Part shown: piece after piece, positions 5,222 through 25,100 of the stretch | How the letters are laid out: every line of letters starts with the position of its first letter | How positions within the stretch are numbered: position 1 is the first letter of the stretch | Virus record (IMG/VR): IMGVR_UViG_3300050033_000347 | Coordinates: 1-32,457 of that record | Reading direction: 5' to 3' (one strand) | Source of the DNA: a virus | Length of the DNA: 32,457 nt | Program-made: the position numbers and the translations under genes | Notes under the pieces: model-generated | The model's database searches: none | Seen by the model: only the letters and a program-made list of their open reading frames with translations | Told to the model about the DNA's origin: nothing

Positions 5222-5228
5222 GTATTTA
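5222..5228 (+). promoter_or_regulatory. GTATTTA promoter-like element 1
   Basis: GTATTTATG, between the 5149 terminator and the gene at 5265, 36 bases from its ATG. It is one of seven intergenic copies in this window, all on the + strand and each preceding a new gene block. A run of T lies upstream (about 5204-5211). Confidence 0.55.
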
Positions 5229-5264
5229 TGTTAAATAAGTTTTTTGATTTAACAAACAGACAAA

Positions 5265-5615
5265 ATGGAAACAAAGATAACAGAAATAAAAGAATTTTTA
5301 TCCGATTTTGAATACTTGTCAGAAGACACAAGTATAATTGAAACAACAAAAATAAATGGTACTATTGGTTGTATTATTAAATATAGAAATGCATCAGAGA
5401 TGTATGATCTTACAGAAGTAATGAATATTAATAATTATACTAAAGAAGAAACATTAGATTATCTTACACGTACATTTAAAGAAATAGTTGATAAAAAAAT
5501 AAATAATGCATTACTTGATTTTGAAGATTCATTCGAAACAATAAATCTTCTTGAATTAAAAGAAGAAGAAATTAAACACATTAAATATTTAATTTCTCAA
5601 TCTAAATTTAAATAA
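5265..5615 (+). CDS. Hypothetical protein, 116 residues
   Basis: Not recognised. It is an acidic, soluble, probably alpha/beta protein. The N-terminal third has a strand pattern ('TIGCIIKYRNASEMYDL') and the rest is helical ('YTKEETLDYLTRTFKEIVDKKI', 'LLELKEEEIKHIKYLISQ'). It is the first gene after terminator 5149 and promoter-like element 1. It is followed 27 bases later by the zinc-knuckle gene, with which it probably shares a transcript that ends at 6179-6219. Confidence 0.7.
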   Translation: METKITEIKEFLSDFEYLSEDTSIIETTKINGTIGCIIKYRNASEMYDLTEVMNINNYTKEETLDYLTRTFKEIVDKKINNALLDFEDSFETINLLELKEEEIKHIKYLISQSKFK

Positions 5616-5642
5616 CATTTAAATAATAAATAAATAATAATT

Positions 5643-6128
5643 ATGAGAAGAAGACTTAAAAATGTGAAAAAAGAACCGAAAAAAATAAAAAAAATTTTGG
5701 ATAAAATTACTTGTCCGCACTGTGGTGTAACAGGTACTGAATATTTAATGAATCGTTGGCATTTTGAAAATTGTAGGAATAAAGGTGAGATTAAAATTGA
5801 CGAAGTTCAAGAAATAAATGCAAAAGTAGTTGTAGAACAACTTGAAGATGTCTTAACAATGACAAAAAAAGAAGCAATAGAAATTGATAATATAGATATG
5901 AAGTCATTATCAGTTAAAGAATATGAATTAGAACATCAGAATAATCTATTTGAAGGTTATAACATATATAAAAATGTATATCTTCAACAACAAGATTTTA
6001 CAATGCCATTCATTGAATTCTTGAAAAAATTCAAATATTGGTTGATTTCAGAAAATATTCACCCCAACAATTTAACGATTCAGAACATTTATAAATTTAT
6101 AAAATTTTTACCTAATATTCAAATATAA
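5643..6128 (+). CDS. C2HC zinc-knuckle protein, 161 residues
   Basis: After a Lys/Arg-rich N-terminus (1-21), residues 24-44 carry Cys24-Pro-His-Cys27, then Arg38-Trp-His40-Phe and Cys44. This is the C-P-H-C...W-H-F-x-x-C knuckle often found in T4-like phage proteins, including HNH homing endonucleases and DNA-binding accessory proteins. It probably binds one zinc and contacts nucleic acid. The remaining 115 residues are helical, with no catalytic H-N-H or GIY-YIG motif, so a homing endonuclease is not supported. It may be a DNA-binding regulator. The second gene of a two-gene unit, it ends before a stem-loop and a terminator. Confidence 0.6.
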   Translation: MRRRLKNVKKEPKKIKKILDKITCPHCGVTGTEYLMNRWHFENCRNKGEIKIDEVQEINAKVVVEQLEDVLTMTKKEAIEIDNIDMKSLSVKEYELEHQNNLFEGYNIYKNVYLQQQDFTMPFIEFLKKFKYWLISENIHPNNLTIQNIYKFIKFLPNIQI

Positions 6129-6150
6129 TTGTTCAGGTCACTTTCCATGT

Positions 6151-6176
6151 ATTAAGATGAAGTGCGATCTCTTAAT
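6151..6176 (+). other. Stem-loop ahead of terminator
   Basis: ATTAAGA (6151-6157) pairs with TCTTAAT (6170-6176) across a 12-base loop. It lies between the zinc-knuckle stop and the next terminator. It lacks a T run of its own and may protect the 3' end or pause polymerase. Confidence 0.35.
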
Positions 6177-6178
6177 GC

Positions 6179-6219
6179 AAAAACCCCAGATCAGATTTCT
6201 CTTTTCTGGGGTTTCTTTT
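6179..6219 (+). terminator. Intrinsic terminator after zinc-knuckle gene
   Basis: AAACCCCAGA (6181-6190) pairs with TCTGGGGTTT (6205-6214), followed by CTTTT. A 14-base loop separates the arms. A-rich bases before the stem make it potentially bidirectional. Confidence 0.85.
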
Positions 6220-6330
6220 GACATGAAAAAACTTAATTAACAAACAATCTCAAAGATATATTTTATTAGAAATAAATACAAGGTTTTTTAAAAATAAATA
6301 CAGATATATTAAAATAAATCGAATTTCTAA

Positions 6331-6340
6331 GTATTTATAT
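6331..6340 (+). promoter_or_regulatory. GTATTTATAT promoter-like element 2
   Basis: GTATTTATAT, 43 bases before the phosphoesterase ATG. The 252-bp gap from 6129 to 6380 otherwise holds the stem-loop, the 6179 terminator and two TAAATAC copies (about 6269-6300), which are the same core on the opposite strand. Confidence 0.55.
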
Positions 6341-6380
6341 GACAGACAGAAAAAAATAACTTTATTAACACAAACAAAAA

Positions 6381-7130
6381 ATGATTAATCAAAGATTAAG
6401 ACTAAACAAAAACGAAATTGAACTAATAACATTACTCAGACAAACCAAAAAATCAACAACAGACCCAGAAAGAACACTTCAGACAGACGGTAATAGAATT
6501 CTGGTAATATCCGATCTTCACGCACCATTTGTTCATCCTGATGCTTTAAAACACTGCAAAAAGGTTTATAAAGAATACGAATGTAATCAGGTAGTATGCA
6601 TTGGTGACGTAATTGATAACAGTGCAACCACACGTTGGGAAGTGAATCCTGATGGCAAATCTGCAAAAGATGAATTAGATGAAGCAATTAAAATATTATC
6701 ACAATGGTATAAAGCATTTCCTGTTGCTTATGTTACAACTGGTAATCATGAAGCACGTATAATGAAGAAATTACAAAGAGGTTCGGTAAGCAGTAAATGG
6801 TTAAAAGACCTTAATGAAGTTCTTGAAGTACCTGACTGGACATTTGTCAATGAGATCATAATCGGAAAAACTAAATATTTGCATGGTGAGGGTTGCAGCA
6901 GTACACTTCAATCATTATTACAATCAAGTACAAACATCGTATTTGGACACTTTCATAGTAAGTTTGAGATCATTTACAACCAAGATAGGTTTGCTATGTG
7001 TGTAGGATGGTTGGGTGATAGGGATGCTCTGGCTTTTAATTATGCAAGAACATTCGTTAAACAACAGATTTTAGGTTGTGCAGTGGTACTTAATGATCAT
7101 CCAATATTATGTCCGATGAAAAATAATTAA
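6381..7130 (+). CDS. Calcineurin-like metallophosphoesterase
   Basis: A 249-residue protein with the full metallophosphoesterase motif set: Asp45-Leu-His47 ('VISDLHAPF'), Gly75-Asp76 ('CIGDVIDN'), Gly121-Asn-His-Glu124, His168-Gly, and Gly189-His190-Phe-His192. These residues bind two divalent metals and hydrolyse phosphoesters. The domain fills most of the protein after a ~38-residue helical N-terminus. Phage members act as DNA phosphatases/nucleases or cyclic-nucleotide phosphodiesterases; the substrate here cannot be decided. It is preceded by promoter-like element 2 and followed by an A/T-only hairpin that overlaps its stop codon. It sits some 800 bp upstream of the terminase genes, so a role in DNA processing is possible but unproven. 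Confidence 0.9.
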   Translation: MINQRLRLNKNEIELITLLRQTKKSTTDPERTLQTDGNRILVISDLHAPFVHPDALKHCKKVYKEYECNQVVCIGDVIDNSATTRWEVNPDGKSAKDELDEAIKILSQWYKAFPVAYVTTGNHEARIMKKLQRGSVSSKWLKDLNEVLEVPDWTFVNEIIIGKTKYLHGEGCSSTLQSLLQSSTNIVFGHFHSKFEIIYNQDRFAMCVGWLGDRDALAFNYARTFVKQQILGCAVVLNDHPILCPMKNN

Positions 7131-7160
7131 AAAATATTTTAATAAATGTGAATATTTTTT
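7129..7160 (+). terminator. Weak A/T-only hairpin, possible terminator
   Basis: AAAAAATATT (7129-7138) and AATATTTTTT (7151-7160) are complementary, with a 12-base loop and a final T run. The stem has no G/C pair, so it is weak. It sits between the phosphoesterase stop and promoter-like element 3. Confidence 0.35.
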
Positions 7161-7171
7161 CAAAAAACAAA

Positions 7172-7180
7172 GTATTTATA
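7172..7180 (+). promoter_or_regulatory. GTATTTATA promoter-like element 3
   Basis: GTATTTATA, 22 bases before the ATG at 7201, just after the A/T hairpin. A T run (7155-7160) precedes it, as in element 1. It would drive the small genes and perhaps the terminase genes. Confidence 0.5.
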
Positions 7181-7200
7181 GTAAAAAGTAAAATGATATT

Positions 7201-7350
7201 ATGAAAAAAGAAATGACAGATGATGAATTGATAAAAGAATATGTTAAAACACGTATTGAATTACAGAAATATCTTAATGTATTAATAAATCGTATAAATA
7301 ATACTCTTAATGCAGCAGAAACAATAATTGAAAATATATATAATAAATAA
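7201..7350 (+). CDS. Small hypothetical protein, 49 residues
   Basis: ATG at 7201, TAA at 7348. The product is one long amphipathic helix with heptad-like Leu/Ile/Val spacing ('ELQKYLNVLINRINNTLNAA'), consistent with a small coiled-coil protein. It is the first gene after promoter-like element 3, and the next gene begins 8 bases later. Function is not recognised. Confidence 0.5.
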   Translation: MKKEMTDDELIKEYVKTRIELQKYLNVLINRINNTLNAAETIIENIYNK

Positions 7351-7358
7351 AAACAACC

Positions 7359-7568
7359 ATGATAGTTAATTGTAATACTTCAACAACTTTGACTGTATTT
7401 GATAAAGAGATCATACTTTTATCAAGTGTTATTAAGAAATTAGTTGATGAAAATAATCTTAAAGTTATTGGTTTTAAATATATTCAATCAATTAGTCTGA
7501 CAGGTAAAGAAGTACAATTTCTCGAAGAACTGCATGCGAAAATTATAAATGAACTAAAAAAAGAATAA
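7359..7568 (+). CDS. Small hypothetical protein, 69 residues
   Basis: Not recognised. It has a beta-rich N-terminus ('STTLTVFDKEIILLSSVIKKL') and a helical C-terminus ('KEVQFLEELHAKIINELKK'), giving a plausible small alpha/beta fold. It starts 8 bases after the preceding gene and ends 1 base before the next ATG, so it belongs to a tightly packed run of small genes at 7201-7919. Confidence 0.6.
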   Translation: MIVNCNTSTTLTVFDKEIILLSSVIKKLVDENNLKVIGFKYIQSISLTGKEVQFLEELHAKIINELKKE

Positions 7569-7569
7569 C

Positions 7570-7719
7570 ATGAAAACAATTGAATGTACAGGTAAATTAT
7601 GGATAAGTGTAAGTGACGATCAATATATAGTTATAATACAACAAATTGGTTTGAAAGCAATATATAATCTTAATGAAATATATCAAGGAATAAAAAATGG
7701 AGAATTAATTAAAAATTAA
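7570..7719 (+). CDS. Small hypothetical protein, 49 residues
   Basis: ATG at 7570, one base after the preceding stop; TAA at 7717. The product starts 'MKTIECTGKLWISVSDDQYI' and continues into a short helix ('LNEIYQGIKNGEL'). No motif is recognised. The tight spacing to both neighbours and the in-place start support a real gene. Confidence 0.45.
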   Translation: MKTIECTGKLWISVSDDQYIVIIQQIGLKAIYNLNEIYQGIKNGELIKN

Positions 7720-7727
7720 AAATAACA

Positions 7728-7919
7728 ATGAAAACTACATTTAAAAAACTTATAAAAATAATGAAAAGTATTAAAGATATTTTAGTCTCAGTACTTGAAG
7801 CACCACTTTGGATAACACTTATTATCGTACTGATACTCTTAGGTTTATTCGAATTACTAAAGACTGATGGTGGACTCACAAAGAAGATATTGGAAGCAAG
7901 AAAATCTGTAAAAGTTTAA
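7728..7919 (+). CDS. Small single-pass membrane protein, 63 residues
   Basis: A Lys-rich N-terminus (residues 1-16) is followed by a hydrophobic helix at about 28-44 ('LWITLIIVLILLGLFELL') and a charged C-terminus. By the positive-inside rule the N-terminus probably faces the cytoplasm. It lies at the end of the small-gene run, just before the small terminase gene. It could be a holin-like or superinfection-exclusion protein, but nothing in it decides between these. Confidence 0.6.
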   Translation: MKTTFKKLIKIMKSIKDILVSVLEAPLWITLIIVLILLGLFELLKTDGGLTKKILEARKSVKV

Positions 7920-7953
7920 ACTAAAATCACTGAAAAAACGTAAAAATAATAAC

Positions 7954-8460
7954 ATGACACCTAAAGAATGGATGGATAATCAAGGCAATAACCTACCAGT
8001 GGTAAAGAAAAAAGCACATAGACGTTCTGTATTATCAAAGTATCAGCGTGAATTAATGATTATTGCTGTAGCAGAAATGATATTATCTGGTGTAAGCCGT
8101 TCAGATATTGTAGATAGGGTTCATGTGAATTACGGATATTCTGTAAATACCATAAAAGATATTATTGTAGAAGCACAGACTATGGCTGCAAAGCAGTTTA
8201 GTCCTGAAGAAATAAAGATTGTAGCAAGAAAAATAGATGCATTATATTCACGAACATTAGGAGATACTGAAGAATCAATCATGTGGAAACTAAAAGCAGC
8301 AGACCAATGGGCAAAACTGCATGGACTTTATAAACCCGATGCACTTATCCAAATAAATATAAACGCAGAACTTGATAAAAAACTCAAAGAATTTACTGTA
8401 GAACAATTGGAAGATTTTGATGAAATAATTGAAGAACACAAACCAAAGGATAACGAATAA
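7954..8460 (+). CDS. terS: Terminase small subunit (probable)
   Basis: A 168-residue protein directly upstream (6 bp) of the large terminase. Residues about 28-75 fit the DNA-binding helix-turn-helix of small terminases ('LMIIAVAEMILSGVSRSDIV', then 'YGYSVNTIKDIIVEAQ'). The central helices ('WKLKAADQWAKLHGLYKPD') match the oligomerisation segment seen in Bacteroidetes phage TerS proteins, and the acidic tail could contact the large subunit. Small terminases recognise the packaging site and stimulate the motor ATPase. The assignment is driven by position and layout, since TerS sequences are poorly conserved. Confidence 0.75.
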   Translation: MTPKEWMDNQGNNLPVVKKKAHRRSVLSKYQRELMIIAVAEMILSGVSRSDIVDRVHVNYGYSVNTIKDIIVEAQTMAAKQFSPEEIKIVARKIDALYSRTLGDTEESIMWKLKAADQWAKLHGLYKPDALIQININAELDKKLKEFTVEQLEDFDEIIEEHKPKDNE

Positions 8461-8466
8461 TAGCGA

Positions 8467-10032
8467 ATGACTGATAAACATAACATATTGAATGAATTAC
8501 ATAAATTACCTGTAGCAGAGGTTAACCTGACTGTAAAAAAAAACTTATATGAAAAGAGTTTTTATCACTTCTTTGTTGGGTGTACAACAGCAGTGTATAA
8601 AAATGTGAAATGGATTTACCCACCATTTTATCGTTATGTATGTGACAGATTGCAATATTATGCTGAAAATTATATTAATGGGCATAAAAAAATAAAAGAC
8701 ATTATCTTGACTTTGCCTTATCGTTCGGGTAAGAGTACTATTTTAGAATGTTATAAGGCATGGTTATGGACTCGTAGTTTGAATATTGATATACTTTCAA
8801 TATCAGCAACAAGTCCTTTGGCAGTGAAATCAAATAGAAATGTAAAAAGAATTATTGAAAGCGAATGGTATCAGTCAATGTGGAGTACAAAGTTTGCTAA
8901 AGACCAAAAGGCTAAAGGTAGTTATAATAACGAAAATAATGCTTCAATGATTGGTATAGGCGTAAAATCTTCGGCAGTTGGCAAAGATGCCTCATTATTA
9001 TGCATAGATGACCCAAACGAACCCCAGTCAAAAAATGCAACAAAGACTGCTTTTACTAATGTGATAGACCGTTTCCGTGATGTCTTATATTCAAGACTTA
9101 ATGAACCAACACGAGGATATCGTGTAATTTGTCAACAGCGTGTAGATGCCGAAGACCTTACGGGTTGGATTTTAAAAAATCATGGTGGTACTGTTGAAAA
9201 TATCTGTTTGCCTGTAAAGTGGAATAAATATGCTACATCAAGTCTTAGACATTTATATGATGCAGAAGGATATCTTTGGCGTGAACGTTATACAACAGAA
9301 TATCTAAAAGAATGTGAAGATACAATGACACCGAATGCAGTGGCATCACAACTTTATGCAAGTGCAAGTGCAATTGAAGGTTCGAGTATTATGAAATTAT
9401 GGTTCGATACAATACTTGATAGTCAATTTAAGCGTTTGGGAGCATTTAAGACATTCTTATTTGTGGATGGTGCTTATACCTCAGATAAGATGAACAATGA
9501 CCCTACTGCATATTATGTATGCACATTAATAAATAAACGCATATATGTACTTGACGTAATACAAGATTGGCTTGAATGGAATGATAATGTTGAATTCATC
9601 AAAGAACTTATACTGAAATATTCAATTAAAGAAGTTATTATTGAAAAAAAGGCAAACGGTATTTCACTTATTCAAGAACTTCGTAGACAAATACCACGTA
9701 CAAGTATTGTTGGAATAGACCCTGCATCAAAAAGCAAAGGTATGAGAGCAAAATTAACACAACCATATTTGTCAAATCATAATGTAATACTTGTGCAAGG
9801 TAGTTGGAATGATATGTTTAAAGACCAGTGTGCAAGTTTTGACGCAGATAATCCAAGAGGTCATGATGATATGGTTGACTGTTTAGTATATTCGGTGATA
9901 TATCTTCTTATTAATCGTTATAGCGTTAATGCAATCAAACAAGCAGGTCTTAATATTATTAAAGATGGTAAAACATGGGAAGAAAAGAATAGTTATTTGA
10001 ATAATAAATCGGACAATTATTATTACGATTAA
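8467..10032 (+). CDS. terL: Terminase large subunit (packaging ATPase/nuclease)
   Basis: A 521-residue protein with both TerL domains. The ATPase domain has a Walker A-like Pro84-Tyr-Arg-Ser-Gly-Lys-Ser-Thr91 and a Walker B at about 176-182 (Leu-Leu-Cys-Ile-Asp181-Asp182-Pro). The RNase H-like nuclease domain starts with 'FLFVDGAY' (Asp334) and includes 'VIIEKKANG' and the C-terminal His466-Asp-Asp468-Met-Val-Asp471. Together these drive ATP-dependent packaging and cut concatemeric DNA. The protein is full length for the family. The domain order and His-Asp-Asp motif resemble terminases of Bacteroidetes phages with headful or cos packaging; the packaging mode cannot be told from the sequence. 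Confidence 0.95.
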   Translation: MTDKHNILNELHKLPVAEVNLTVKKNLYEKSFYHFFVGCTTAVYKNVKWIYPPFYRYVCDRLQYYAENYINGHKKIKDIILTLPYRSGKSTILECYKAWLWTRSLNIDILSISATSPLAVKSNRNVKRIIESEWYQSMWSTKFAKDQKAKGSYNNENNASMIGIGVKSSAVGKDASLLCIDDPNEPQSKNATKTAFTNVIDRFRDVLYSRLNEPTRGYRVICQQRVDAEDLTGWILKNHGGTVENICLPVKWNKYATSSLRHLYDAEGYLWRERYTTEYLKECEDTMTPNAVASQLYASASAIEGSSIMKLWFDTILDSQFKRLGAFKTFLFVDGAYTSDKMNNDPTAYYVCTLINKRIYVLDVIQDWLEWNDNVEFIKELILKYSIKEVIIEKKANGISLIQELRRQIPRTSIVGIDPASKSKGMRAKLTQPYLSNHNVILVQGSWNDMFKDQCASFDADNPRGHDDMVDCLVYSVIYLLINRYSVNAIKQAGLNIIKDGKTWEEKNSYLNNKSDNYYYD

Positions 10033-10047
10033 AATAAAATATTTAAA

Positions 10048-10815
10048 ATGGTTAATGTAGAAATTGGTGAACAAACATTTAAAATGCCAAACAGCATTTA
10101 TGAAATAAATTCAAAGATTGGGTTTAGTCTTGATAAATTAATTCATGAAGACTATAATGATGTTAGATCATTAGAAGCTAACAAATGGATATTGTCTATT
10201 TTATGTAATACTGATTATGATACTATTGACTTAGTAGCTGATGAAGTTGTTGAAATGGTTGTTAATAAACATGCATATTTTCAAAACAACAGGATATATT
10301 TAGCCAAATATGTTATTTTAAAACATATAATATATCAATTACGTGAATTTGATAAAGATGTTGAAGGTAATGAAATGATGATAGTGCTAAATTATGATGA
10401 GATAAGTGAATTATTATTAAAACCATACGATAATTATCAAAAAATATTCTTTAAATTATACAAACCCTTAAATCCATTAAAACAGTTAAACTATAAATTG
10501 AGATTTTTTATAAAAAATTATAAAAATATTGATAATATACCTTACATGATATTAGTATCTGCTATCTATAATCACTTAATGTGGCGTGGTGACTTACTTA
10601 AAAGATATAAACTTGCAATGTATGATGATAGAATGGAGAAAGGTCAACAGGATGAAAAAGTTGAACTAACTGATATTGAAAAAATATTTGGGTTGTATCA
10701 TCACATCATGACTATATGTAATTGTGACATGAAAATGTTTTATTGGTGGCTTGGTCAAGATGTTGAAATGCTGTTTAAACAAATATATTATTTACAACTT
10801 CTTAATTCAAAATAA
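10048..10815 (+). CDS. Probable tail-assembly chaperone
   Basis: A 255-residue, mostly helical protein located between the terminase and tape measure genes. The start ('VEIGEQTFKMPNSIYEINSK') is a small beta region. The end ('LTDIEKIFGLYHHIMTICNC' then 'FYWWLGQDVEMLFKQIYYLQ') resembles the Trp-rich C-terminal helices of tail chaperones that sit immediately before tape measure genes. No slippery heptamer and no second open frame were seen near the 3' end, so a GpG/GpGT-type frameshift is not supported. The call is positional; function otherwise not recognised. Confidence 0.45.
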   Translation: MVNVEIGEQTFKMPNSIYEINSKIGFSLDKLIHEDYNDVRSLEANKWILSILCNTDYDTIDLVADEVVEMVVNKHAYFQNNRIYLAKYVILKHIIYQLREFDKDVEGNEMMIVLNYDEISELLLKPYDNYQKIFFKLYKPLNPLKQLNYKLRFFIKNYKNIDNIPYMILVSAIYNHLMWRGDLLKRYKLAMYDDRMEKGQQDEKVELTDIEKIFGLYHHIMTICNCDMKMFYWWLGQDVEMLFKQIYYLQLLNSK

Positions 10816-10818
10816 TAA

Positions 10819-10856
10819 TTCATAAATATTTACTGTTTTAATGTATTTAATAATAT
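10819..10856 (+). promoter_or_regulatory. GTATTTA promoter-like element 4 (extended form)
   Basis: GTATTTA is at 10843-10849, 33 bases before the tape measure ATG. The preceding 24 bases, including TTTACTG, are almost identical to element 7 at 25063: 30 of 31 positions match over 10819-10849. Confidence 0.65.
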
Positions 10857-10882
10857 AAAAGAAAATATTTTATAGAATAATT

Positions 10883-12904: not shown

Positions 12905-12951
12905 TATAAATAACAACTTAATATAAATAATATAATTAATTAAATAAGAAA

Positions 12952-14346: not shown

Positions 14347-14347
14347 A

Positions 14348-14599: not shown

Positions 14600-14616
14600 A
14601 AAATAAATAAAAATAA

Positions 14617-14666
14617 TTACAGAAAAAATCAAATGAAAAGACATTTGATATATTTATATTCTGTAA
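14617..14666 (+). other. Nested RNA hairpin in leader before the scaffold gene
   Basis: An inner stem of ATCAAATG (14628-14635) with CATTTGAT (14642-14649) and an outer stem of TTACAGAA (14617-14624) with TTCTGTAA (14659-14666) share one axis. There is no T run after it, so a terminator is unlikely. It lies upstream of promoter-like element 5 and may be a 3' end stabiliser for the upstream transcript. Confidence 0.5.
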
Positions 14667-14738
14667 GATGAATTAAATAAAAATAATAATTAAATAAGAA
14701 AATTAATTTACAAAAAAAGAAATAAACAATGATTTAAT

Positions 14739-14747: not shown

Positions 14748-14808
14748 TTATTGACGTAAATATATTGATTATTAAAACAAAAATAATCTTATATATAAAT
14801 TTTAAAAA

Positions 14809-15738: not shown

Positions 15739-15780
15739 AAACATAATTTAAAAAATAATTTTATATAAAAAATAATTAAA

Positions 15781-16794: not shown

Positions 16795-16802
16795 CATATT
16801 AT

Positions 16803-16844
16803 GACACTATAACAGGAAATAATTAATTGTCCTGTTATAATGTC
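16803..16844 (+). other. Hairpin between major capsid and downstream gene
   Basis: TATAACAGGA (16808-16817) pairs with TCCTGTTATA (16830-16839) across a 12-base loop, extended by GACA/TGTC after one mismatch. It is not followed by a T run. It lies just after the capsid stop, and would be inside the coding region if the downstream gene started at 16827. It may be an mRNA-stabilising or processing hairpin that protects the capsid message. Confidence 0.6.
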
Positions 16845-16883
16845 TTAAGTAAAAATAATTTTAATTTAAAAACGATATATATT

Positions 16884-17447: not shown

Positions 17448-17485
17448 TTAGGTTTTTTGGTTTCATATTTCATAATTCTTAAGTG

Positions 17486-17517
17486 AAAGTGTTAAGTTGA
17501 TACTTAACACTTTTTTT
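17486..17517 (+). terminator. Strong intrinsic terminator after the capsid/tube genes
   Basis: AAAGTGTTAAGT (17486-17497) and ACTTAACACTTT (17502-17513) pair perfectly across a 4-base loop, followed by TTTT. It closes the tape measure-protease-capsid block. Confidence 0.92.
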
Positions 17518-17552
17518 ATTTACCATATCTAAGAAATATATAACTGTATAAT

Positions 17553-17565
17553 GTATTTATATAAT
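17553..17565 (+). promoter_or_regulatory. GTATTTATATAAT promoter-like element 6
   Basis: GTATTTATATAAT, 127 bases upstream of the fibre gene and 36 bases after the terminator. Apart from this element, the remaining bases to 17686 contain no convincing gene. Confidence 0.6.
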
Positions 17566-17686
17566 GAAACTAATTTATATAAGTTGAAGTATAGTCAGAA
17601 AATAGTTGAAATGATATTCAAACTTAATAATAACGTTCTAAAAATATTTGAAGATTAAATATAAAAATTAATAAAATTTAAAATAA

Positions 17687-20308
17687 ATGCAGTACATAAC
17701 AAGAAATTTACCTTTAACGTTTCAGATAAAATTATCTAATGCTGAAATAAATCCATATAGTGGTACTTATAATTTTAATGTACGAAATGTGCAAACAAAT
17801 CAGCAAACAGTATTAACACTTGTTGATATTTCAACACTTAAAAACATATATTCAAAATTTACAATTGATAGTGGTACAACATTTGGTTTATTTACAGGAC
17901 AAAATGATGTTAGTATATATGATATTGTTTCTGGAAGTACTTTAATTGCTAAAGATCGTTGGGTGGTTACAGATACTGAAATTGATAATAATATATATTT
18001 CATGCAAAGTGATAACAATCCTGTTGTTTATGGTATATATACAGATGCTGTTCCTTTTACACCAATATTTACACTTACATTATTAACTTCTGGTGTAGAT
18101 GTATTAATAAAATTACAACAAGGTAGTCCAAATACTGAATCATTTGATATTTGGCGTAAAATTGGCACTGGTGGTACTTATATAAATATTGGAAATGATA
18201 TTACTTCTTTTGTTAGTTATGATAATATTCTTAATTATAACACTGAATATTTTTATAAAATTAGAGCAAAAAATACTGTAGGATATTCAAATTTTACAGC
18301 AGAACAAAGCATTAATACTGCTAATATAACTGGTGTTACGGGTAGCAGTTATTATACAAAGTCAGAAATTAACACATATACTGGACAAACAGCATTATTA
18401 CTTAATTCTAAGTTAAATTTAAATATTTTTACTGGTTATACAGGTACTACAGTAAATAAATCTAATTTTAATATATATACTGGCACAACAGCACCAAATA
18501 CATTTTTAAATAAAACTGCTTGTGCATGTGATAGTAAATTATTTAATGCTAAATCTTCATCATATTATCTTAATACAGGTAGTACGGCATTATGCGCAAC
18601 AACTGCTGGTAATGCTTTGGCATTGTGTGGATGTACTCCAAATTGTTTTTTAGGTATTAATGATTGTGCTGCTGATAGTGCTAAATTTAATAATCAATTA
18701 TCTACATATTATCTTAATACTGGTTCAACTGCTGTATGTGCAACCTGTGCAATTGGAGCAAAAAATCTTTGTGGTTGTGTACCAGCATCATTTCTTTTAT
18801 CAGGTGGTACTGCAATAAATAGTTTAAAATTGGGTGGTCAATTACCAGCTTATTATCTCAATACTGGTAGTACAATTACCTGTGCAGCAGATTCTGCTAA
18901 ATTAAATAATAAACTGCCAGTATATTATCTTAATACAGGTAGTACTGCTTTATGCGCAACCTGTTCAGTTGGTTCAAAGAGTCTTTGTGGTTGTGTACCT
19001 GCTTCATTTCTTTTATCAGGTGGTACTGCAATAAATAGTTTAAAATTGGGTGGTCAGTTACCTGCCTATTATCTTAATACAGGCAGTACAATTACCTGTG
19101 CAGCAGATTCTGCTAAATTAAATAATAAACTGCCAGTATATTATCTTAATACTGGTTCAACTGCTGTATGTGCAACCTGTGCAGTTGGTTCAAAGAGTCT
19201 TTGTGGTTGTGTACCTGCTTCATTCTTACTTAGTGGTGGAACAGCAGTAAATTCATTGAAATTAGGTGGTCAGTTACCTGCTTATTATCTTAATATTGGT
19301 AGTACTATTGGTATTGGTTGGTCAAATTTAACTAAGGGTTCAACAGTTGCTGGTTGTGGTACAATTGCAAGTGGTACATCTTGTAATAATACTTTTTATG
19401 GTGTTTGTGCTGGTGCTAAAATAGGATGTGGTGTTGGTAATATTGCTGTTGGTTATGAGGCACTTTATTGTAATATTAGTGGTTCTTATAATACTGCAAT
19501 TGGTTATTTAACACTTTATAATAATGCTTGTAGTTGGATAAGCTACTGTAAAGGTCAATATAATACTGCAATTGGTGGTACAGCACTTTTTTCTAATATT
19601 TGTGGTTGTAATAATACTGCAATTGGTTATTCTGCAGGTTATTGTAATCAGACTGGAAATACTAATGTTGCAATAGGATATAATGCTGGTTACTGTGAAA
19701 CTGGCTCAAATAAATTATATATTCATAATAGTGGTAGTGTTAACCCTTTAATTTATGGTGACTTCTCATTAAAATGTATTAAAATTAATGGTTGTTTAAA
19801 TGTAACTGGTTGCACGACATCAGTAAAATTTATTGAAGGTGGTACTTGTTTAGGAAGTACTTATTTGGGTTTAACATCTTGTGCTTGTGATTCAAAATGT
19901 TTAGGTACAAAACTACCGGCATATTATCTTAATACTGGAAGTACTGCATTATGTGCAACAAATTCTGCTTGTCTTGGTGGAGTATTACCAGCATTATACT
20001 TACTTACTGCTGCAAGTATTGTTGTTGTGACAGGAACAAGTCTCACATTATCTTATGCTACACATAATGCTAAGATAGTTGAATTGACAAATACAGGAGC
20101 AACAACTGTATGGCTTCCTACTGGAATGACAGCAAATTTTCAAGCAGATTTTACAAGTGTTAGTGCAAGTAATAAGACATTCTGTCAATGTACAGGTGCT
20201 TGTGTGAGAAGTCTTAGCAGTCACGTCATATTGACAGGTGCTTATAATATGGCAGCATTATATTTAAGATGTACAAATAATTATGTTTTGTCTGGTAATC
20301 TCTGTTAA
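17687..20308 (+). CDS. Cys-rich repetitive tail fibre / receptor-binding protein
   Basis: An 873-residue protein. Residues about 118-208 look like a fibronectin type III domain ('YFYKIRAKNTVGYSNFTAEQ'). From about 280 it carries repeats of the fibre type '...KLGGQLPAYYLNTGST...' (the L-G-G-x-x-P-x-x-Y-L pattern of T4 gp37-like fibres), including a 72-residue unit near-perfectly repeated (residues about 351-540). Residues about 580-675 have 'NTAIGY'-type repeats, like the head repeats of trimeric autotransporter adhesins. The C-terminus is a small beta domain. Roughly 45 Cys residues occur, all after about residue 275, which is exceptional for a fibre. It probably binds host surface structures as a trimer. 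It follows promoter-like element 6. Confidence 0.75.
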   Translation: MQYITRNLPLTFQIKLSNAEINPYSGTYNFNVRNVQTNQQTVLTLVDISTLKNIYSKFTIDSGTTFGLFTGQNDVSIYDIVSGSTLIAKDRWVVTDTEIDNNIYFMQSDNNPVVYGIYTDAVPFTPIFTLTLLTSGVDVLIKLQQGSPNTESFDIWRKIGTGGTYINIGNDITSFVSYDNILNYNTEYFYKIRAKNTVGYSNFTAEQSINTANITGVTGSSYYTKSEINTYTGQTALLLNSKLNLNIFTGYTGTTVNKSNFNIYTGTTAPNTFLNKTACACDSKLFNAKSSSYYLNTGSTALCATTAGNALALCGCTPNCFLGINDCAADSAKFNNQLSTYYLNTGSTAVCATCAIGAKNLCGCVPASFLLSGGTAINSLKLGGQLPAYYLNTGSTITCAADSAKLNNKLPVYYLNTGSTALCATCSVGSKSLCGCVPASFLLSGGTAINSLKLGGQLPAYYLNTGSTITCAADSAKLNNKLPVYYLNTGSTAVCATCAVGSKSLCGCVPASFLLSGGTAVNSLKLGGQLPAYYLNIGSTIGIGWSNLTKGSTVAGCGTIASGTSCNNTFYGVCAGAKIGCGVGNIAVGYEALYCNISGSYNTAIGYLTLYNNACSWISYCKGQYNTAIGGTALFSNICGCNNTAIGYSAGYCNQTGNTNVAIGYNAGYCETGSNKLYIHNSGSVNPLIYGDFSLKCIKINGCLNVTGCTTSVKFIEGGTCLGSTYLGLTSCACDSKCLGTKLPAYYLNTGSTALCATNSACLGGVLPALYLLTAASIVVVTGTSLTLSYATHNAKIVELTNTGATTVWLPTGMTANFQADFTSVSASNKTFCQCTGACVRSLSSHVILTGAYNMAALYLRCTNNYVLSGNLC
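18740..19310 (+). repeat. 216-bp tandem repeats in fibre gene
   Basis: Units start at 18740, 18956 and 19172, exactly 216 bp (72 codons) apart; the third is partial and more diverged near its end. Synonymous differences between copies show some age, but protein sequence is largely kept. Confidence 0.9.
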
Positions 20309-20311
20309 AAA

Positions 20312-21100
20312 ATGTTTATAACTCGTAGAGGCATATTATATCCTTTCAGTTCTTTTGATGCTAATGCTCAAGCATTAATTGCTCGTATGATAGCAGCAGG
20401 AGAAACTCCTACATCTGCAAGACAGAATGCTATTAATACTTGTATTCTTAGTCTTAAAGCAAATAGTCTTTTTGATACTATGTTTGATGTACTGGTAGTC
20501 ACAAGAGCACACGGAGCAGCATCTGCTGTAATGAACTGGATTAAAAATGCTAATAATGGTATACCTACAGGTAGTCCTACTTTTACTACAGATGTTGGTT
20601 TTAGTTCTGCAGGTTATACACAATATATTAATTCAAATTATGCACCTGCATCACAAGGCACAAATTTTACTTCTCTTAATGCTGGTTTCTTATTGAAATT
20701 ATCTGGTACTATTACAGGTGGTTATGGTTTACACGGCACAGTAGGAGCAACTTATGCTGATAGAATATCAATAGGTAGTGGTGCTTGTTCTGACATTAAT
20801 AGTTCAACTATAGTAGGTACAACTGTAGTAATTGGTTATAATGCAGTAGTAAGAACTGGTACAACAAATATAACAGACCTTAGAAATAATAATGCTCCTG
20901 TAGTTAGTGCTCAAGCATTTTCAACATTATCTGCTACTAATCCTGCTTTTATTTTATCTTATAATGCTGCGGGTAGTCCTTGGAATGCAAGTAACTGTGT
21001 TGGCGAAATAGTTGAAATATATGGTTTTAGTAAGTCAATGACACAAGCACAATTTTTAACTTTTCAAACTATAATGAATACTTATTTTACAACTACTTAA
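20312..21100 (+). CDS. Tail/receptor-binding-like structural protein
   Basis: A 262-residue protein starting 4 bases after the fibre stop. The N-terminal region ('DANAQALIARMIAAGETPTS', 'INTCILSLKANSLFDTMFDV') matches a pattern seen in Bacteroidetes phage tail proteins, where an Asp-Ala-x-Ala-x-x-Phe segment precedes a helical linker. The rest is beta-rich with Ser/Thr/Gly loops ('GTITGGYGLHGTVGATYADR') and a closing 'GEIVEIYGFSKSMTQAQFLTF', in keeping with a concanavalin/LamG-like binding domain. It probably decorates the tail tip or fibre. The assignment is by resemblance and context. Confidence 0.55.
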   Translation: MFITRRGILYPFSSFDANAQALIARMIAAGETPTSARQNAINTCILSLKANSLFDTMFDVLVVTRAHGAASAVMNWIKNANNGIPTGSPTFTTDVGFSSAGYTQYINSNYAPASQGTNFTSLNAGFLLKLSGTITGGYGLHGTVGATYADRISIGSGACSDINSSTIVGTTVVIGYNAVVRTGTTNITDLRNNNAPVVSAQAFSTLSATNPAFILSYNAAGSPWNASNCVGEIVEIYGFSKSMTQAQFLTFQTIMNTYFTTT

Positions 21101-21119
21101 AAGCAAAATATGGATTATA

Positions 21120-21404
21120 ATGACAGAAAATCAAAATATATTAAAAAGTGATGTAAAAATACCAATCTGGATCTTCAGTATAATAGTAACTCTTATGTTG
21201 GCATTATTAGGATTTATAGCAGTCAATGCAACAAGTAGACAACAAGTTGTGCAGAATAGTATTGAGATAAGTAGTATAAAAAATAATGAGATAAAGCAAC
21301 TTCAATCTGATAAAGCAGATAAAGCAGAAGTTGTTACAATGCAAACAACATTAGTGAGAATTGAAAATAAATTGGATAATTATATATTATTAAAAAGCAA
21401 ATAA
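21120..21404 (+). CDS. Small membrane protein with coiled-coil tail
   Basis: A 94-residue protein with one hydrophobic helix at about 16-36 ('IWIFSIIVTLMLALLGFIAV') and a C-terminal coiled-coil-like region ('EISSIKNNEIKQLQSDKADK'). This is the layout of some holin-associated or inner-membrane spanin-type proteins. It starts 19 bases after the tail gene and ends 2 bases before the next membrane gene. No endolysin is visible in the window, so a lysis role is only an inference. Confidence 0.6.
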   Translation: MTENQNILKSDVKIPIWIFSIIVTLMLALLGFIAVNATSRQQVVQNSIEISSIKNNEIKQLQSDKADKAEVVTMQTTLVRIENKLDNYILLKSK

Positions 21405-21406
21405 TT

Positions 21407-21700
21407 ATGATAAATATTATTAACTATATAAAGAAATTAGTTGATGAAAAAGACTCAGCAAGCAGTAAAATAGCAATGGGACTAATGTTTGCTTTTTTTA
21501 CCATATTACTAATTATAGCAAAAATAGTAATTCAATCAATACCAATGGATGTGCTTTATTTTTCAGGTGGTATGGTACTTAGTCTATTTGGTTTAAATAG
21601 TATTGATAAATTTAGAAAAAATAGTAATGATTCATCAGTTGTGAATACTGAAACTCACACTAATGTAGAAATAAATAAAAAAGAAGAACAAATAACTTAA
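21407..21700 (+). CDS. Two-helix membrane protein, holin-like
   Basis: A 97-residue protein with a charged N-terminus and two probable membrane helices (about 22-44 'KIAMGLMFAFFTILLIIAKI' and 50-66 'VLYFSGGMVLSLFGLNS'), separated by a short loop. The C-terminus is hydrophilic and acidic/basic mixed. Two-helix proteins of this size are commonly holins. Its neighbours are also membrane proteins, which supports a lysis cassette. It cannot be separated from other small membrane proteins by sequence alone. Confidence 0.55.
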   Translation: MINIINYIKKLVDEKDSASSKIAMGLMFAFFTILLIIAKIVIQSIPMDVLYFSGGMVLSLFGLNSIDKFRKNSNDSSVVNTETHTNVEINKKEEQIT

Positions 21701-21706
21701 ATAATT

Positions 21707-22018
21707 ATGATAAAATTTAGTGGTATAACATTAATTAATAAGATTCTTTTTGGTGCGATCATAATATTCAGTCTGTTAGCATTCATGAAAGGATGTTCTT
21801 ATGGTAAGACCAGAGTCAAATGTCCGACAATAACAACAAATATTAAATATATTCATGATACGATCACTCGTGAAATACCTAACTATTATACATATTACAT
21901 TCAGGGCAAAGATTCTATTATATATCAAGAGAAATTAATACCTGCAAAAGTAGATACTATAGCTATTTTATATGATTATTACGCTAAACACATATATAAC
22001 AGGCAATGGAAAGGTTAA
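21707..22018 (+). CDS. Single-pass membrane protein, spanin-like
   Basis: A 103-residue protein with an N-terminal hydrophobic helix (about 10-28 'ILFGAIIIFSLLAFMKGCSY') and an extracytoplasmic-looking tail ('IHDTITREIPNYYTYYIQGK', 'KVDTIAILYDYYAKHIYN'). The pattern resembles phage i-spanin or Rz-like proteins, although coiled coil is not strong. It ends shortly after 'YNRQWKG'. The +1 frame stays open from an ATG at 21972 to 22091, so the C-terminus may be truncated by an indel or overlapped by a small gene. It is third in the membrane-gene run before the portal gene. Confidence 0.5.
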   Translation: MIKFSGITLINKILFGAIIIFSLLAFMKGCSYGKTRVKCPTITTNIKYIHDTITREIPNYYTYYIQGKDSIIYQEKLIPAKVDTIAILYDYYAKHIYNRQWKG

Positions 22019-22091
22019 ATGGACTCCTTATATAAAAGGATTTGAATTTGGTACAGGAATAAAAATATTACAATTTAAAACAAAAAAATAA
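21972..22091 (+). CDS. Possible small overlapping gene or frameshifted tail, 39 residues
   Basis: ATG at 21972 in +1 relative to the spanin-like gene, running to TAA at 22089-22091, four bases (22092-22094) short of the portal ATG. The product reads 'MIITLNTYITGNGKVKWTPY' and continues with 'IKGFEFGTGIKILQF' and a basic tail. It may be a genuine overlapping gene (as in nested spanins, though no lipobox Cys is present) or the displaced end of the upstream protein. The evidence is its position and freedom from stops only. Confidence 0.25.
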   Translation: MIITLNTYITGNGKVKWTPYIKGFEFGTGIKILQFKTKK

Positions 22092-22094
22092 GAA

Positions 22095-23456
22095 ATGGAA
22101 GACAATATATTAAGTGAAAATACTTTAAACAATAATGATGTAGTTAAAAAGTCATCTTCAGGTCAAATTGACTATAGTGGCTTTGATGAACTTGAAATGA
22201 CTGCCAATGTATTTGGTGACGGTACACGTATTATACCAAGAATACAAATACAGTATTCAAAAAAGTATATGTTATGGTGTGATAATAGTACAACAGCTAA
22301 TGATTATCCAAACAAACTTCTTGAATTATATAATAACTGTAGTTTACACCACTATATATGCAATTTAAAAGCACTTCTTATTACGGGTGCAGGATTGGTA
22401 TTAAAAGATTCTGGTGCTACTAATGCGTCTAAAACACAGCAATTTCTTGATCAATTAAATTCAGATGGTGACAATGCCAATATGGTACTAAAAAAACAAG
22501 CACTTGATTTGGTTTTATTTGGTGGTCATGCTGAAGAAATACCTTTTACAAAGAATTATGATAAAATTCTTGAAATAAGACATTTAGAAGTACTTAAAAT
22601 AAGAACTGCACGTCCTGACACATACGGACAAATAAACGGCTTTTTTTGGGCATTTGCATGGACTGATACCTATAGACCTTCACGTGCTATTTATTGTCCT
22701 AAATTCAATGCTATTAAGGCAGCATATAACAGGGATGCATATAAAAAGATAATGGATGATATTCAATATAATAATGTTAGTCCGTATGATATGGAAACAA
22801 TGAAAGACTTTATAAATACTGGTAGTACAATTAACTTTTATAAAGAATATACACCAAATAGTTATTATTATCCACTTCCCGATTATGTTGCTGTCATACC
22901 CGCTATTGAAATTGACATTGAATCAGATATTTACGCTTTATCATCTTTGAAAAATGGTATGGATAGCGGTGTTAGAATTAATTTAATTGGTGACCCTGAC
23001 GACCCCGAATTTAAACGTGGTATTAAGAACATGTTAAAAAACTATACTGGTAGTCGTAAAGCCAATAAACCTTGGATAACAATTAGTCAGACCCCTGAAA
23101 CAAAACCTGACATGGAAGCAATTGGCACAACCAACAGTTTAGCACAAAAATATAAAGTTATAAATGATAGTCAACAACAGAAAATACTTTCAGGTCACGG
23201 TATTAACAACCCTGCAATGGTTGGTATATTGGTAGCTGGTAAGTTAGGTAACACAACAGGTGTTGAAATATATCAAAGTTATCAGATATTTCATAATTAT
23301 ATAATAAAGCCTAAAAAGAAAATTCTTGAAGATTTTTGGAATACTATTATGAAATATAACGGATTGGCAGAAGTTGAAATAAAAGACGTTGACATTTTCA
23401 CACCACAAAACACACAAATACCAAAAGGTAATGAAATTGTTACTGATATAGTATAA
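22095..23456 (+). CDS. Portal protein
   Basis: A 453-residue protein with features of SPP1/PBSX-type portals. It has an N-terminal strand-rich wing ('CSLHHYICNLKALLITGAGL'), a region with 'LDLVLFGGHAEEIPFTKN' and 'EIRHLEVLKIRTARPD', and a clip/stem region with 'FINTGSTINFYKEYTPN' and 'SDIYALSSLKNGMDSG'. It also has a crown-like segment 'LSGHGINNPAMVGILVAGK', which matches the loop before the central helix in portals, followed by 'EIYQSYQIFHNYIIKPKKKI'. Portals form the dodecameric gate through which the terminase packages DNA. It stands about 12 kb from terL, against the usual terminase-portal adjacency. It is followed by head-tail connectors. Confidence 0.8.
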   Translation: MEDNILSENTLNNNDVVKKSSSGQIDYSGFDELEMTANVFGDGTRIIPRIQIQYSKKYMLWCDNSTTANDYPNKLLELYNNCSLHHYICNLKALLITGAGLVLKDSGATNASKTQQFLDQLNSDGDNANMVLKKQALDLVLFGGHAEEIPFTKNYDKILEIRHLEVLKIRTARPDTYGQINGFFWAFAWTDTYRPSRAIYCPKFNAIKAAYNRDAYKKIMDDIQYNNVSPYDMETMKDFINTGSTINFYKEYTPNSYYYPLPDYVAVIPAIEIDIESDIYALSSLKNGMDSGVRINLIGDPDDPEFKRGIKNMLKNYTGSRKANKPWITISQTPETKPDMEAIGTTNSLAQKYKVINDSQQQKILSGHGINNPAMVGILVAGKLGNTTGVEIYQSYQIFHNYIIKPKKKILEDFWNTIMKYNGLAEVEIKDVDIFTPQNTQIPKGNEIVTDIV

Positions 23457-23488
23457 AAATAATAAATAAAACTTAAAATATAAATAAT

Positions 23489-24055
23489 ATGTCTATACTC
23501 GTTCATTTTATAACAACTGATTACGTTAAAGAAAACACTTTAATTGATACTTCTGTTGACGATAAAATTATAAAATACATGATAACACGTGCTGAAGATA
23601 GATTTTTACAAACTGTGCTTGGTACAACATTATTTGAAAAGTTACAATACAACATTCAATATAATTCAATAACCGTTAAGCAAAGATTTTTAATTGATAA
23701 TAAAATAATAAAATTTTTATTGGCAGCTATTCAATTTATAGCAATGAATGATGTTCTTGCAAAATATGCTGAAAATGGTGCATATACCGTAACACCACAA
23801 AACACAGCACAACTAACACCACAACAGGTTGAAAATATTCAAATAAATTCAGAAGCTGATATGCATGTTTATGAAGCATTAATTGATACATATATTCATC
23901 AAAATATTGGTGACTTTCCTGAATATGACAGTAAGTTAGATATTGAAAGTAAAAAGGTACGTAATTTCGGATTTTATTTGGACAGTGAAAATGATGAAAA
24001 AGATAAATTTTACAATGAACGTACTGGCTGGCATAATTTTGACGAGTCATTGTAA
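23489..24055 (+). CDS. Head-tail connector/adaptor protein (probable)
   Basis: A 188-residue protein starting 32 bases after the portal. The opening 'ILVHFITTDYVKENTLIDTS' followed by 'DDKIIKYMITRAEDRFLQTV' and 'LGTTLFEKL' is a pattern common to a Bacteroidetes phage family placed next to portals, in which a helical N-terminus resembles HK97 gp6-like adaptors. It ends with a Tyr/Phe/Asp-rich tail ('NFGFYLDSENDEKDKFYN'). It probably forms the first ring below the portal. Identification is by neighbours and layout. Confidence 0.6.
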   Translation: MSILVHFITTDYVKENTLIDTSVDDKIIKYMITRAEDRFLQTVLGTTLFEKLQYNIQYNSITVKQRFLIDNKIIKFLLAAIQFIAMNDVLAKYAENGAYTVTPQNTAQLTPQQVENIQINSEADMHVYEALIDTYIHQNIGDFPEYDSKLDIESKKVRNFGFYLDSENDEKDKFYNERTGWHNFDESL

Positions 24056-24094
24056 GCAAATAAAAATAATATTTAAAATTAATATATAATTATC

Positions 24095-24532
24095 ATGTAT
24101 AATACTTTAAAAGAAATTGATAACGATTTTAAAAACCTTACTGAAAACTTATTAGCTGGTACAGTAGAATATGTAAATGATGATATGACGGAATTTACAT
24201 CAAAAAACAGACATTATCCTTTAGTTTTTGCTATGCCTGTTGAAATGGATACAGTTGACGGACAAACAATATTTCAGATATTGATAAGAGTTATGAATAT
24301 TCAATATGAAAACATGAAGTTAAATGATATCTGGAATGAAACTTCAATTATAGTACAAGAAATTATAACTTATTTTAATGAACGTCAGGATAGCGATACA
24401 AGATACTTTGGTGTAACAGCAAGTCAATTTAAGACTTTCAATATGGGTATAGATATGGCAGCAGGTTGGCAGGGTACTTTAAGTTTTAAACTTCGTAATC
24501 CGATTGACTATTATTCTATTAGGTTTAAATAA
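24095..24532 (+). CDS. Head-tail joining / tail terminator-like protein (probable)
   Basis: A 145-residue alpha/beta protein with N-terminal helix ('YNTLKEIDNDFKNLTENLLA'), strands ('HYPLVFAMPVEMDTVDGQTI') and a helix-strand region ('TSIIVQEIITYFNERQDSDT'), closing 'FNMGIDMAAGWQGTLSFKLR'. The order helix-strand-strand-helix-strand and the size fit tail terminator or stopper proteins, which close the tube or the connector. It lies between the connector and a gp10-like gene. The assignment is context-based. Confidence 0.5.
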   Translation: MYNTLKEIDNDFKNLTENLLAGTVEYVNDDMTEFTSKNRHYPLVFAMPVEMDTVDGQTIFQILIRVMNIQYENMKLNDIWNETSIIVQEIITYFNERQDSDTRYFGVTASQFKTFNMGIDMAAGWQGTLSFKLRNPIDYYSIRFK

Positions 24533-24542
24533 CATTATTAAT

Positions 24543-25016
24543 ATGCAATTAGATAACCTTAAGAAAATTGTTCAAATATACGGATTAGAACGTATTGCCT
24601 TATTCAGTGCTGCAATGAAGGATAATGGCAGTAAACATTTATTTGATCAATTGGACGGTGAAACAAAGGAAGAAATTGATAGTATAATTCTGACAATTAA
24701 AGCACCTGTAACTGTTTATTATGCCAGTGAAGGAAGAAAACAAGGTAAATTTCCACCACCACAAGTTATATTAAGTTGGGTCAAAGATCATAACATACAA
24801 TTCAGGGATAAAAAAGGCAGATATATTAAAGATGCTGCTACAGCATTTATTGTTAGCAGAAAAATTGCAACGGTTGGTACAAAACTTAATGCTATTCATT
24901 TTCTTGACGAGTGGAAACTAACTGATGAATTTAAAACAGATGCATTGCAAGCATATATTGAAGATGTTAAAACAGAATTAAGTCAAATTATTGACAAATT
25001 AAACGCTGATCAATAA
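24543..25016 (+). CDS. HK97 gp10-like tail completion / neck protein (probable)
   Basis: 157 residues from the ATG at 24543; an in-frame ATG at 24504 overlaps the previous gene and is less likely. The pattern 'VYYASEGRKQGKFPPPQVIL' followed by 'SWVKDHNIQFRDKKGRYI' and 'KDAATAFIVSRKIA' closely follows phage neck proteins, in which a Tyr/Glu-x-Gly-x-x-x-Gly-Lys-Phe-Pro-Pro motif is typical. The C-terminus ('LQAYIEDVKTELSQIIDKL') is helical. It probably joins head to tail. It is the last gene before promoter-like element 7. Confidence 0.65.
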   Translation: MQLDNLKKIVQIYGLERIALFSAAMKDNGSKHLFDQLDGETKEEIDSIILTIKAPVTVYYASEGRKQGKFPPPQVILSWVKDHNIQFRDKKGRYIKDAATAFIVSRKIATVGTKLNAIHFLDEWKLTDEFKTDALQAYIEDVKTELSQIIDKLNADQ

Positions 25017-25062
25017 TAATATTATTTAACTTAAGTGAACTAATATTTTCAAGAAATTATTT

Positions 25063-25100
25063 TTCATAAATATTTACTGCTTTAATGTATTTATATAATA
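25063..25100 (+). promoter_or_regulatory. GTATTTATATAAT promoter-like element 7 (extended form)
   Basis: GTATTTATATAAT at 25087-25099, 28 bases before the Dit-like gene ATG (counted from the GTATTTA core). The 24 bases before it match element 4 except at one position. The gap from 25017 holds no other gene. Confidence 0.65.

Follow-up and report, generated by a model that had tools for sequence, protein, structure and literature searches.

A GTATTTA element before the structural gene blocks of a small phage, probably a late promoter and shared with T4-like phages

The element and its position among the genes

The stretch of DNA analysed here, IMG/VR record IMGVR_UViG_3300050033_000347, positions 1-32457 (32,457 nucleotides, hereafter the window), comes from a small phage, of whose genome it may be a fragment, and the subject of this work is a short element, GTATTTA, that recurs between its genes. 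The gene set comprised 38 selected open reading frames (ORFs) and the intergenic DNA amounted to 2191 bases, with an A+T content of 82%. The first 5 kb encodes sigma-like candidates, a DNA methyltransferase and a replication-initiation-like protein, and is presumably early; the region that follows encodes terminase, tape measure, protease, portal, fibre and tail proteins. An earlier, sequence-only reading had listed seven copies of GTATTTA on the + strand, all of them between genes and marking the starts of gene blocks, and every coordinate proved exact: all seven are intergenic, 22-127 bases separate the motif from the ATG that follows, and one element opens each of the seven blocks of the structural region (Table 1). 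The four copies that were said to read TATTTATA do so (at 6332, 7173, 17554 and 25088). Six of the seven read GTATTTAT, the copy at 10843 being the only one without a T at position 8, and around 40 bases are common to the copies at 25087 and 10843. Judged by position, the block from 14809 to 17447 probably holds the head genes.

Three of the elements follow strong terminator-like hairpins. Apart from the three hairpins in Table 1, a weaker one lies ahead of the element at 14739 (z -3.7), and the search returned none of note ahead of the elements at 7172, 10843 and 25087. As a terminator ends the previous transcript, the gene that follows requires a promoter of its own in those very intervals, and the element is the feature that the terminator-to-gene intervals share. 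Within the structural region, seven of the nine gaps of at least 60 bases contain the element (the two without it are 16795-16871 and 22019-22094), and it is found in none of the 19 shorter gaps and in none of the five gaps of the first 5 kb. This distribution also bears on the idea that the element acts at the RNA level, as a leader signal for translation or processing and not as a promoter. The closeness of the start codons would suit such a role, but their distance varies sixfold, the copies stand at block starts only, with none in the short gaps within blocks, and they come after terminators, which leaves an RNA signal with very little probability.

Table 1. Coordinates of the elements, hairpins and genes discussed in the text
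Feature	Position	Strand	Remarks
GTATTTA element (GTATTTATG)	5222..5228	+	36 bases before ATG at 5265; ~48 bases after terminator hairpin
GTATTTA element (GTATTTATA)	6331..6337	+	43 bases before metallophosphoesterase gene at 6381; terminator hairpin upstream
GTATTTA element (GTATTTATA)	7172..7178	+	22 bases before block 7201-10815, which includes the large terminase gene
GTATTTA element (TTTACTGTTTTAATGTATTTAATAATAT)	10843..10849	+	33 bases before tape-measure-like gene at 10883
GTATTTA element (TTTAATGTATTTATG)	14739..14745	+	63 bases before block 14809-17447
GTATTTA element (TAATGTATTTATATAAT)	17553..17559	+	127 bases before fibre-like gene at 17687; terminator hairpin upstream
GTATTTA element (TTTACTGCTTTAATGTATTTATATAATATA)	25087..25093	+	28 bases before tail block 25122-29920
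Terminator-like hairpin	5149..5174	+	upstream of 5222 element; -20.1 kcal/mol, z -6.2
Terminator-like hairpin	6181..6214	+	upstream of 6331 element; -20.2 kcal/mol, z -4.3; missed by pattern scan
Terminator-like hairpin	17485..17514	+	upstream of 17553 element; -14.7 kcal/mol, z -4.8
Structural and packaging region	5265..29920	+	seven blocks, each opened by one element
Candidate minimal sigma factor	10..861	+	weak region 2 match, residues 56-104; no region 4
Protein called sigma-like in the sequence-only reading	845..1525	+	no support found

Enrichment and extent of the element

In a scan corrected for A/T content, sense GTATTTA is concentrated between the genes: seven intergenic copies were seen where first- and second-order Markov models predict 0.60 and 0.53, respectively, and no other 7-mer of the intergenic DNA is so strongly over-represented. 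It does not occur in sense coding DNA, in which codon shuffles average 6.25 copies and give zero in 0.6% of cases (P 0.006). Because GTATTTA was picked after looking at the sequence, the spacers were also simulated taking the best 7-mer each time, and none of 300 simulations reached the observed value. The - strand carries five copies, two of them intergenic (6273 and 6295) and three antisense within genes (8144, 22813 and 25642), so the statement that coding regions are free of the motif holds for the sense strand and fails for the antisense strand. Over the whole window and both strands there is no excess (12 seen, 16.45 expected); the signal resides in placement and not in overall abundance. 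The latter count, and the fact that the spacers are so rich in A and T, are what one would expect of a chance or composition artefact. However, the composition-matched expectations are clearly exceeded, the family-wise simulation never produced an equal value, and the element is independently conserved in other phages, including 44 out of 44 upstream segments (see below), so that the probability of such an artefact is close to negligible.

The word extends by one base beyond the 7-mer: GTATTTAT is the top 8-mer upstream of the window genes (6 against 0.17 expected). The leading G forms part of it, since six of the eight upstream TATTTAT copies are preceded by a G, at a background frequency of 0.10. 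Taken alone, TATTTATA is less informative, with 19 copies on both strands of the window. A leave-one-out weight matrix of 25 positions ranks only two of the seven copies ahead of all other places, and little is therefore conserved beyond the core; outside it, four isolated columns (-16, -12, -11 and +15) rise above noise. Neither a second conserved part at a fixed distance nor a -35 box is clear around the window copies, as expected for a sigma factor that lacks region 4. The same intergenic DNA is strongly enriched in TAAAAATAA (13 against 1.5-1.7), which fits the A-rich leaders before Bacteroidota start codons.

The flanking sequence is relevant to a further possibility, namely that the element binds a phage activator or repressor at or beside an ordinary promoter. 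TATAAT-like letters follow the core in some copies, and operator-like repeats occur in related phages (e.g. AGTGACCAGT in Cellulophaga phage phi18:1). Yet no further conserved element was detected at a constant spacing from it, the motif is directional relative to the gene and forms no palindrome, and the corresponding T4 word obtained with the same script is the promoter itself. Taken together, we regard a regulator target as quite improbable.

Contrast with the host-type promoter

Relatives of the window are distant. Searches of IMG/VR with the large terminase subunit (TerL), the protein at 15781-16794 (called capsid by position) and those at 25122-26258 and 845-1525 gave distant relatives or none, and of six window proteins compared with INPHARED three had distant matches and three had no match. 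Among the best 80 of 442 TerL loci, the closest relative shows ~32% identity. A genome TerL search gave 77 loci, 62 of which belong to Bacteroidota judging from their titles; this is weak evidence on the host, as the query alignment was drawn mostly from Bacteroidota phages. GTATTTA is the top upstream word in none of the scanned phage records (nine and eight) and in none of the TerL loci of at least 8 kb. With only distant relatives, and the word on top in none of those scanned, orthologous footprinting within the window's own lineage is impossible. Two of the scanned phages have upstream repeats of other kinds: Cellulophaga phage phi18:1 has five upstream copies of AGTGACCA and five of TGACCAGT, both operator-like and missing from the genes themselves, and Croceibacter phage P2559Y has a repeat of the CATTGTTT / ATTGTTTA type (6 against 0.15), possibly a phage-specific promoter of another class.

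Bacteroidota hosts possess an unusual primary sigma factor. Their primary sigma promoter has the form TTTG / TAnnTTTG. The -7 box of sigma-A promoters is described as TAnnTTTG, refined to TAHHTTTG (PMC6847099). The window element resembles this box in being of the -10-region kind, with a TA start and a T-rich centre, but the TTTG end is absent. The sequence-only reading had called the element unlike the host promoter, and our counts agree. In the window, TAnnTTTG is absent upstream in the sense orientation (0 against 1.92 expected), which is not significant alone but fits a switch of promoter class. In the Chryseobacterium chromosome that served as host control (360 of 451 kb, one contig), TATATTTG ranks first (20 against 2.9), whereas GTATTTAT shows no excess (4 against 2.7, rank 1051). 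The host box stands out in other phages: in Flavobacterium phage 11b TATATTTG was found unaided by enrichment (10 against 0.44) and TAnnTTTG occurs 15 times against 2.7, phage 1/32 has 11 upstream copies of TAnnTTTG against 1.7, and in some IMG/VR relatives the upstream words are headed by TATATTTG or TATCTTTG. Matches to a sigma70-type promoter in the first 20 kb do not exceed those in shuffles (145 against 132) and show a modest excess at 17000-32457 (133 against 108.7); they are too common to be useful.

These data also allow an evaluation of a host-only explanation, in which the element is a promoter read by the host RNA polymerase with an alternative or relaxed Bacteroidota sigma factor, no phage factor being involved. 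TATTTATA agrees with TAnnTTTG at four of the six fixed positions, a common host factor would explain why the element is common to unrelated phages, and the phage factor is a candidate only, a sigma region 2 gene being found in three out of 11 records of T4-like phages. On the other hand, the Chryseobacterium control (one chromosome, which may not represent the host's genus) has TATATTTG and not GTATTTAT in excess, other Bacteroidota phages with a distantly related TerL or other related genes use TAnnTTTG, and no copy of the element lies in the presumed early region, whose genes would need host promoters. A host sigma factor as the sole reader is thus unlikely.

The same element in T4-like phages

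When IMG/VR was scanned for an extended version of the element, TTTAATGTATTTATATAAT, 22 stretches were recovered, most of them within coding DNA and apparently chance matches (the pattern TTTACTGNTTTAATGTATTTA gave three stretches, which were judged chance and discarded). The exceptions were L210, L220 and L211. The first two are contigs of one T4-like phage, whose portal matches gp20-annotated proteins (e.g. those of RM378 and Aeromonas phage 65) and whose terminase matches T4-like phages; the third has a match to a baseplate protein of Flavobacterium phage immuto. In contig G011, GTATTTAT is found upstream in sense 20 times against 0.71 expected, and in G009, an overlapping contig of the same phage, 12 times against 0.47. 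GTATTTA also occurs in the sense coding DNA of these contigs (14 and 11 copies, respectively).

From 168 loci recovered with the portal protein, the best 80 (74-100% identity) were taken, selected without use of the element except for the contigs already known. In the 160 bases preceding the portal match, GTATTTA is present in 79 out of 79 loci (80 were fetched, one being too short), and the first 25 of these have two copies each. Among the 44 distinct upstream segments of 45 bases GTATTTAT is invariant while several preceding bases vary; the A-rich stretch that follows is likewise conserved. Where loci are at least 11 kb long, GTATTTAT heads the upstream 8-mers in 37 out of 41 and GTATTTA the 7-mers in 35 out of 41. 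The large records G013 (246 kb) and G012 (349 kb) hold 77 and 147 copies of GTATTTAT, against 26 and 63 of a reversed control. The letter before TATTTAT is a G in this clade as well (e.g. 20 out of 24 in G011). In sum, the clade (L240-L319, G009, G011, G012 and G013) has the same 8-mer in the same orientation, at a similar distance from the start codon and before structural genes, and it differs from the window in having many more copies per genome and genes on both strands. The window phage itself is not T4-like, its portal and terminase families being different from those of the clade.

Some minor observations were made on these contigs. Two copies of GTATTTAT, one on each strand, converge between divergent genes at L211:9612-9650, in what is probably a fragment of a T4-like phage. 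At L239:643-1812 a transposase-family gene of the T4-like phage G011 has GTATTTAT 15 bases before its start codon. A thymidylate synthase frame of 534 amino acids at L237:10903-12507 encloses an HNH endonuclease domain, which is possibly an intein.

Cultured T4-like phages have related words. The structural 50 kb of immuto is enriched in CTATTTAT (10 against 0.30) and TATTTATA (13 against 1.24), Rhodothermus phage RM378 in TTATTTAA (9 against 0.27) and Microcystis phage Mel-JY01 in ATATTTAT (8 against 1.15), and GTATTTA is enriched in none of the three. The letter before TATTTAT is mostly G in the window, C or A in immuto and A in Mel-JY01. For Escherichia coli phage T4, the positive control, the same script returned TATAAATA as the top 8-mer (8 against 0.84). 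Among the T4-like phages tested, TATTTAT-type words occur in immuto and RM378, whose links are to Bacteroidota and relatives; Mel-JY01, recorded from Microcystis, falls outside this set. Immuto has a further upstream repeat, before small genes of unknown function (L321, 60411-110410 of the record), with ATCAATAAT 13 times against 0.11 and TATATTTAG 14 times against 0.21, which is a second, different class of promoter or operator, perhaps early.

Likeness to known phage promoters

According to PMC7892883, T4 late promoters consist of one -10-like 8-mer with no conserved -35 and are present in many copies before structural genes, and the T4 late sigma factor is diverged, with a region 2. The sequence-only reading had pointed out that TATTTATA is the reverse complement of the T4 core TATAAATA, which is correct, but the actual relation lies on the sense strand, where the two words match at six of eight positions. 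The window element resembles the late promoter served by gp55, with gp33 and gp45, in being a single -10-like element, in sense, before structural blocks; it differs in having TT for the middle AA of T4 and in its fixed leading G. The T4-type core itself is not enriched upstream in sense in the window (4 against 2.25 expected).

A second known case is gp36 of phiEco32, which lacks region 4 and reads a single element, tAATGTAtA, with transcription starts 6-8 bases downstream (PMC8948821). The window element likewise has no -35, and four of its copies read TAATGTAT, which equals eight of the nine letters of the gp36 consensus. AATG is, however, absent from three of the seven copies, which rules out that the element is a phiEco32 promoter, and in the T4-like clade the G is not preceded by an invariant AAT; the likeness is probably a coincidence of A/T-rich -10 elements.

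A candidate for the reader of the element

The sequence-only reading had proposed that the proteins encoded at 10-1525 recognize the element. Using a sigma profile built from 29 Bacteroidota sigma proteins, we found some support for the first of the two and none for the second. The product of 10-861 scores 7.2 bits on the region 2 model, a value that none of 500 shuffles equalled and that is the best of 65 window ORFs; for comparison, T4 gp55 scores 8.0 and phiEco32 gp36 19.9 bits. On the whole profile it scores 7.0, with one of 500 shuffles equally good, and 845-1525 has no score. The region 4 model scores neither T4 gp55 nor 10-861. Single-sequence structure prediction was uninformative for both proteins (pLDDT 35.9 and 38.3), and a PHROGs scan of the window proteins, which left out small ORFs in a record that may be a fragment, gave no clamp or gp33 family. 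From its sequence, 10-861 is a weak gp55-like candidate with region 2 only, and we tentatively put it forward as the best candidate reader, with somewhat more doubt than confidence.

Among the T4-like phages a recognizable sigma region 2 gene is present in RM378, G012 and G013, the latter two genes being orthologous. Inhavirus P12024S has five genes in common with the window and also encodes a sigma region 2 protein; no use of GTATTTA was found in its upstream DNA.

Interpretation

Considering the above, GTATTTA(T) is probably a single-element late promoter, read by the host RNA polymerase carrying a phage sigma factor. That the window and the late genes of unrelated T4-like phages have the signal in common suggests that it marks where the virus makes the host RNA polymerase start the late genes. 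After expression of the early genes, the polymerase with a phage-encoded minimal sigma factor would melt the DNA at TATTTAT, the preceding G being part of the signal, and transcription would start a few bases downstream, giving each structural block a short leader, while the terminators between blocks would end the previous transcript. Many T4-like phages, which form a large clade, would share this specificity. A late promoter with a minimal phage sigma factor is the simplest account of the data.

Several observations weigh against it. Three copies lie antisense within genes, the window as a whole shows no excess, and the weight matrix separates only a minority of the copies from the rest of the sequence. 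The sigma match of 10-861 is weak, neither 10-861 nor 845-1525 stands out when the proteins are compared pairwise with six sigma proteins, and searches of Pfam, PHROGs, NCBIfam and PDB gave nothing convincing for either. A recognizable sigma region 2 gene is limited to the three T4-like records named above out of 11, most of the others being fragments, and the G013 sigma factor was recovered (E <=0.01) in three of 23 contigs, again mostly fragments. Predictions of this type can also fail, as the motif predicted for the sigma factor of phage 7-11 (PMC4331800) was contradicted by primer extension (PMC8948821). Finally, no protein common to the window and contigs G009/G011 was detected, and the common element may therefore have more than one cause.

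The occurrence of one word in two unrelated phage groups may reflect a constraint set by the hosts of both, the transfer of a sigma gene, or convergence on an A/T-rich sequence that melts easily. If the reading is right, one may ask whether a sigma factor and its promoter travelled together from one group to the other or arose anew. A wider proposal, which we hold to be somewhat less likely than not, is that nTATTTAT represents the Bacteroidota phages' own class of late promoter. It would replace TATAAATA in the T4-like phages of the phylum, and unrelated small phages would have acquired it or evolved it anew; its reader would be a minimal, region-2-only sigma factor fitted to the divergent Bacteroidota RNA polymerase. 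The result would be a phylum-wide code distinct from that of the host. If the late-promoter reading holds, late genes could be recognized straight from the sequence in many uncultivated phages, and immuto with Flavobacterium sp. LMO8 would be a cultured pair suited to testing the TATTTAT class. To our knowledge there is little experimental work on the takeover of transcription by Bacteroidota phages, and in the titles and abstract openings of the open-access papers listed the element is not reported as a late promoter of such phages.

Other features of the window

Three further regions of the window deserve mention. The 233-base gap at 4591-4823, which follows a protein with VPVVPVES repeats (4198-4590), is partly coding-like; perhaps a frameshift or a misassembly has broken up a gene here. 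On the - strand, opposite to the rest of the phage, positions 30565-32388 encode a radical SAM / SPASM protein of 607 amino acids, the N-terminal half of which is without any Pfam match. The fibre genes at 17687-20308 and 26282-29680 contain long internal repeats (LPAYYLNTGST... and collagen-like GxQG) and match tail fibre families.

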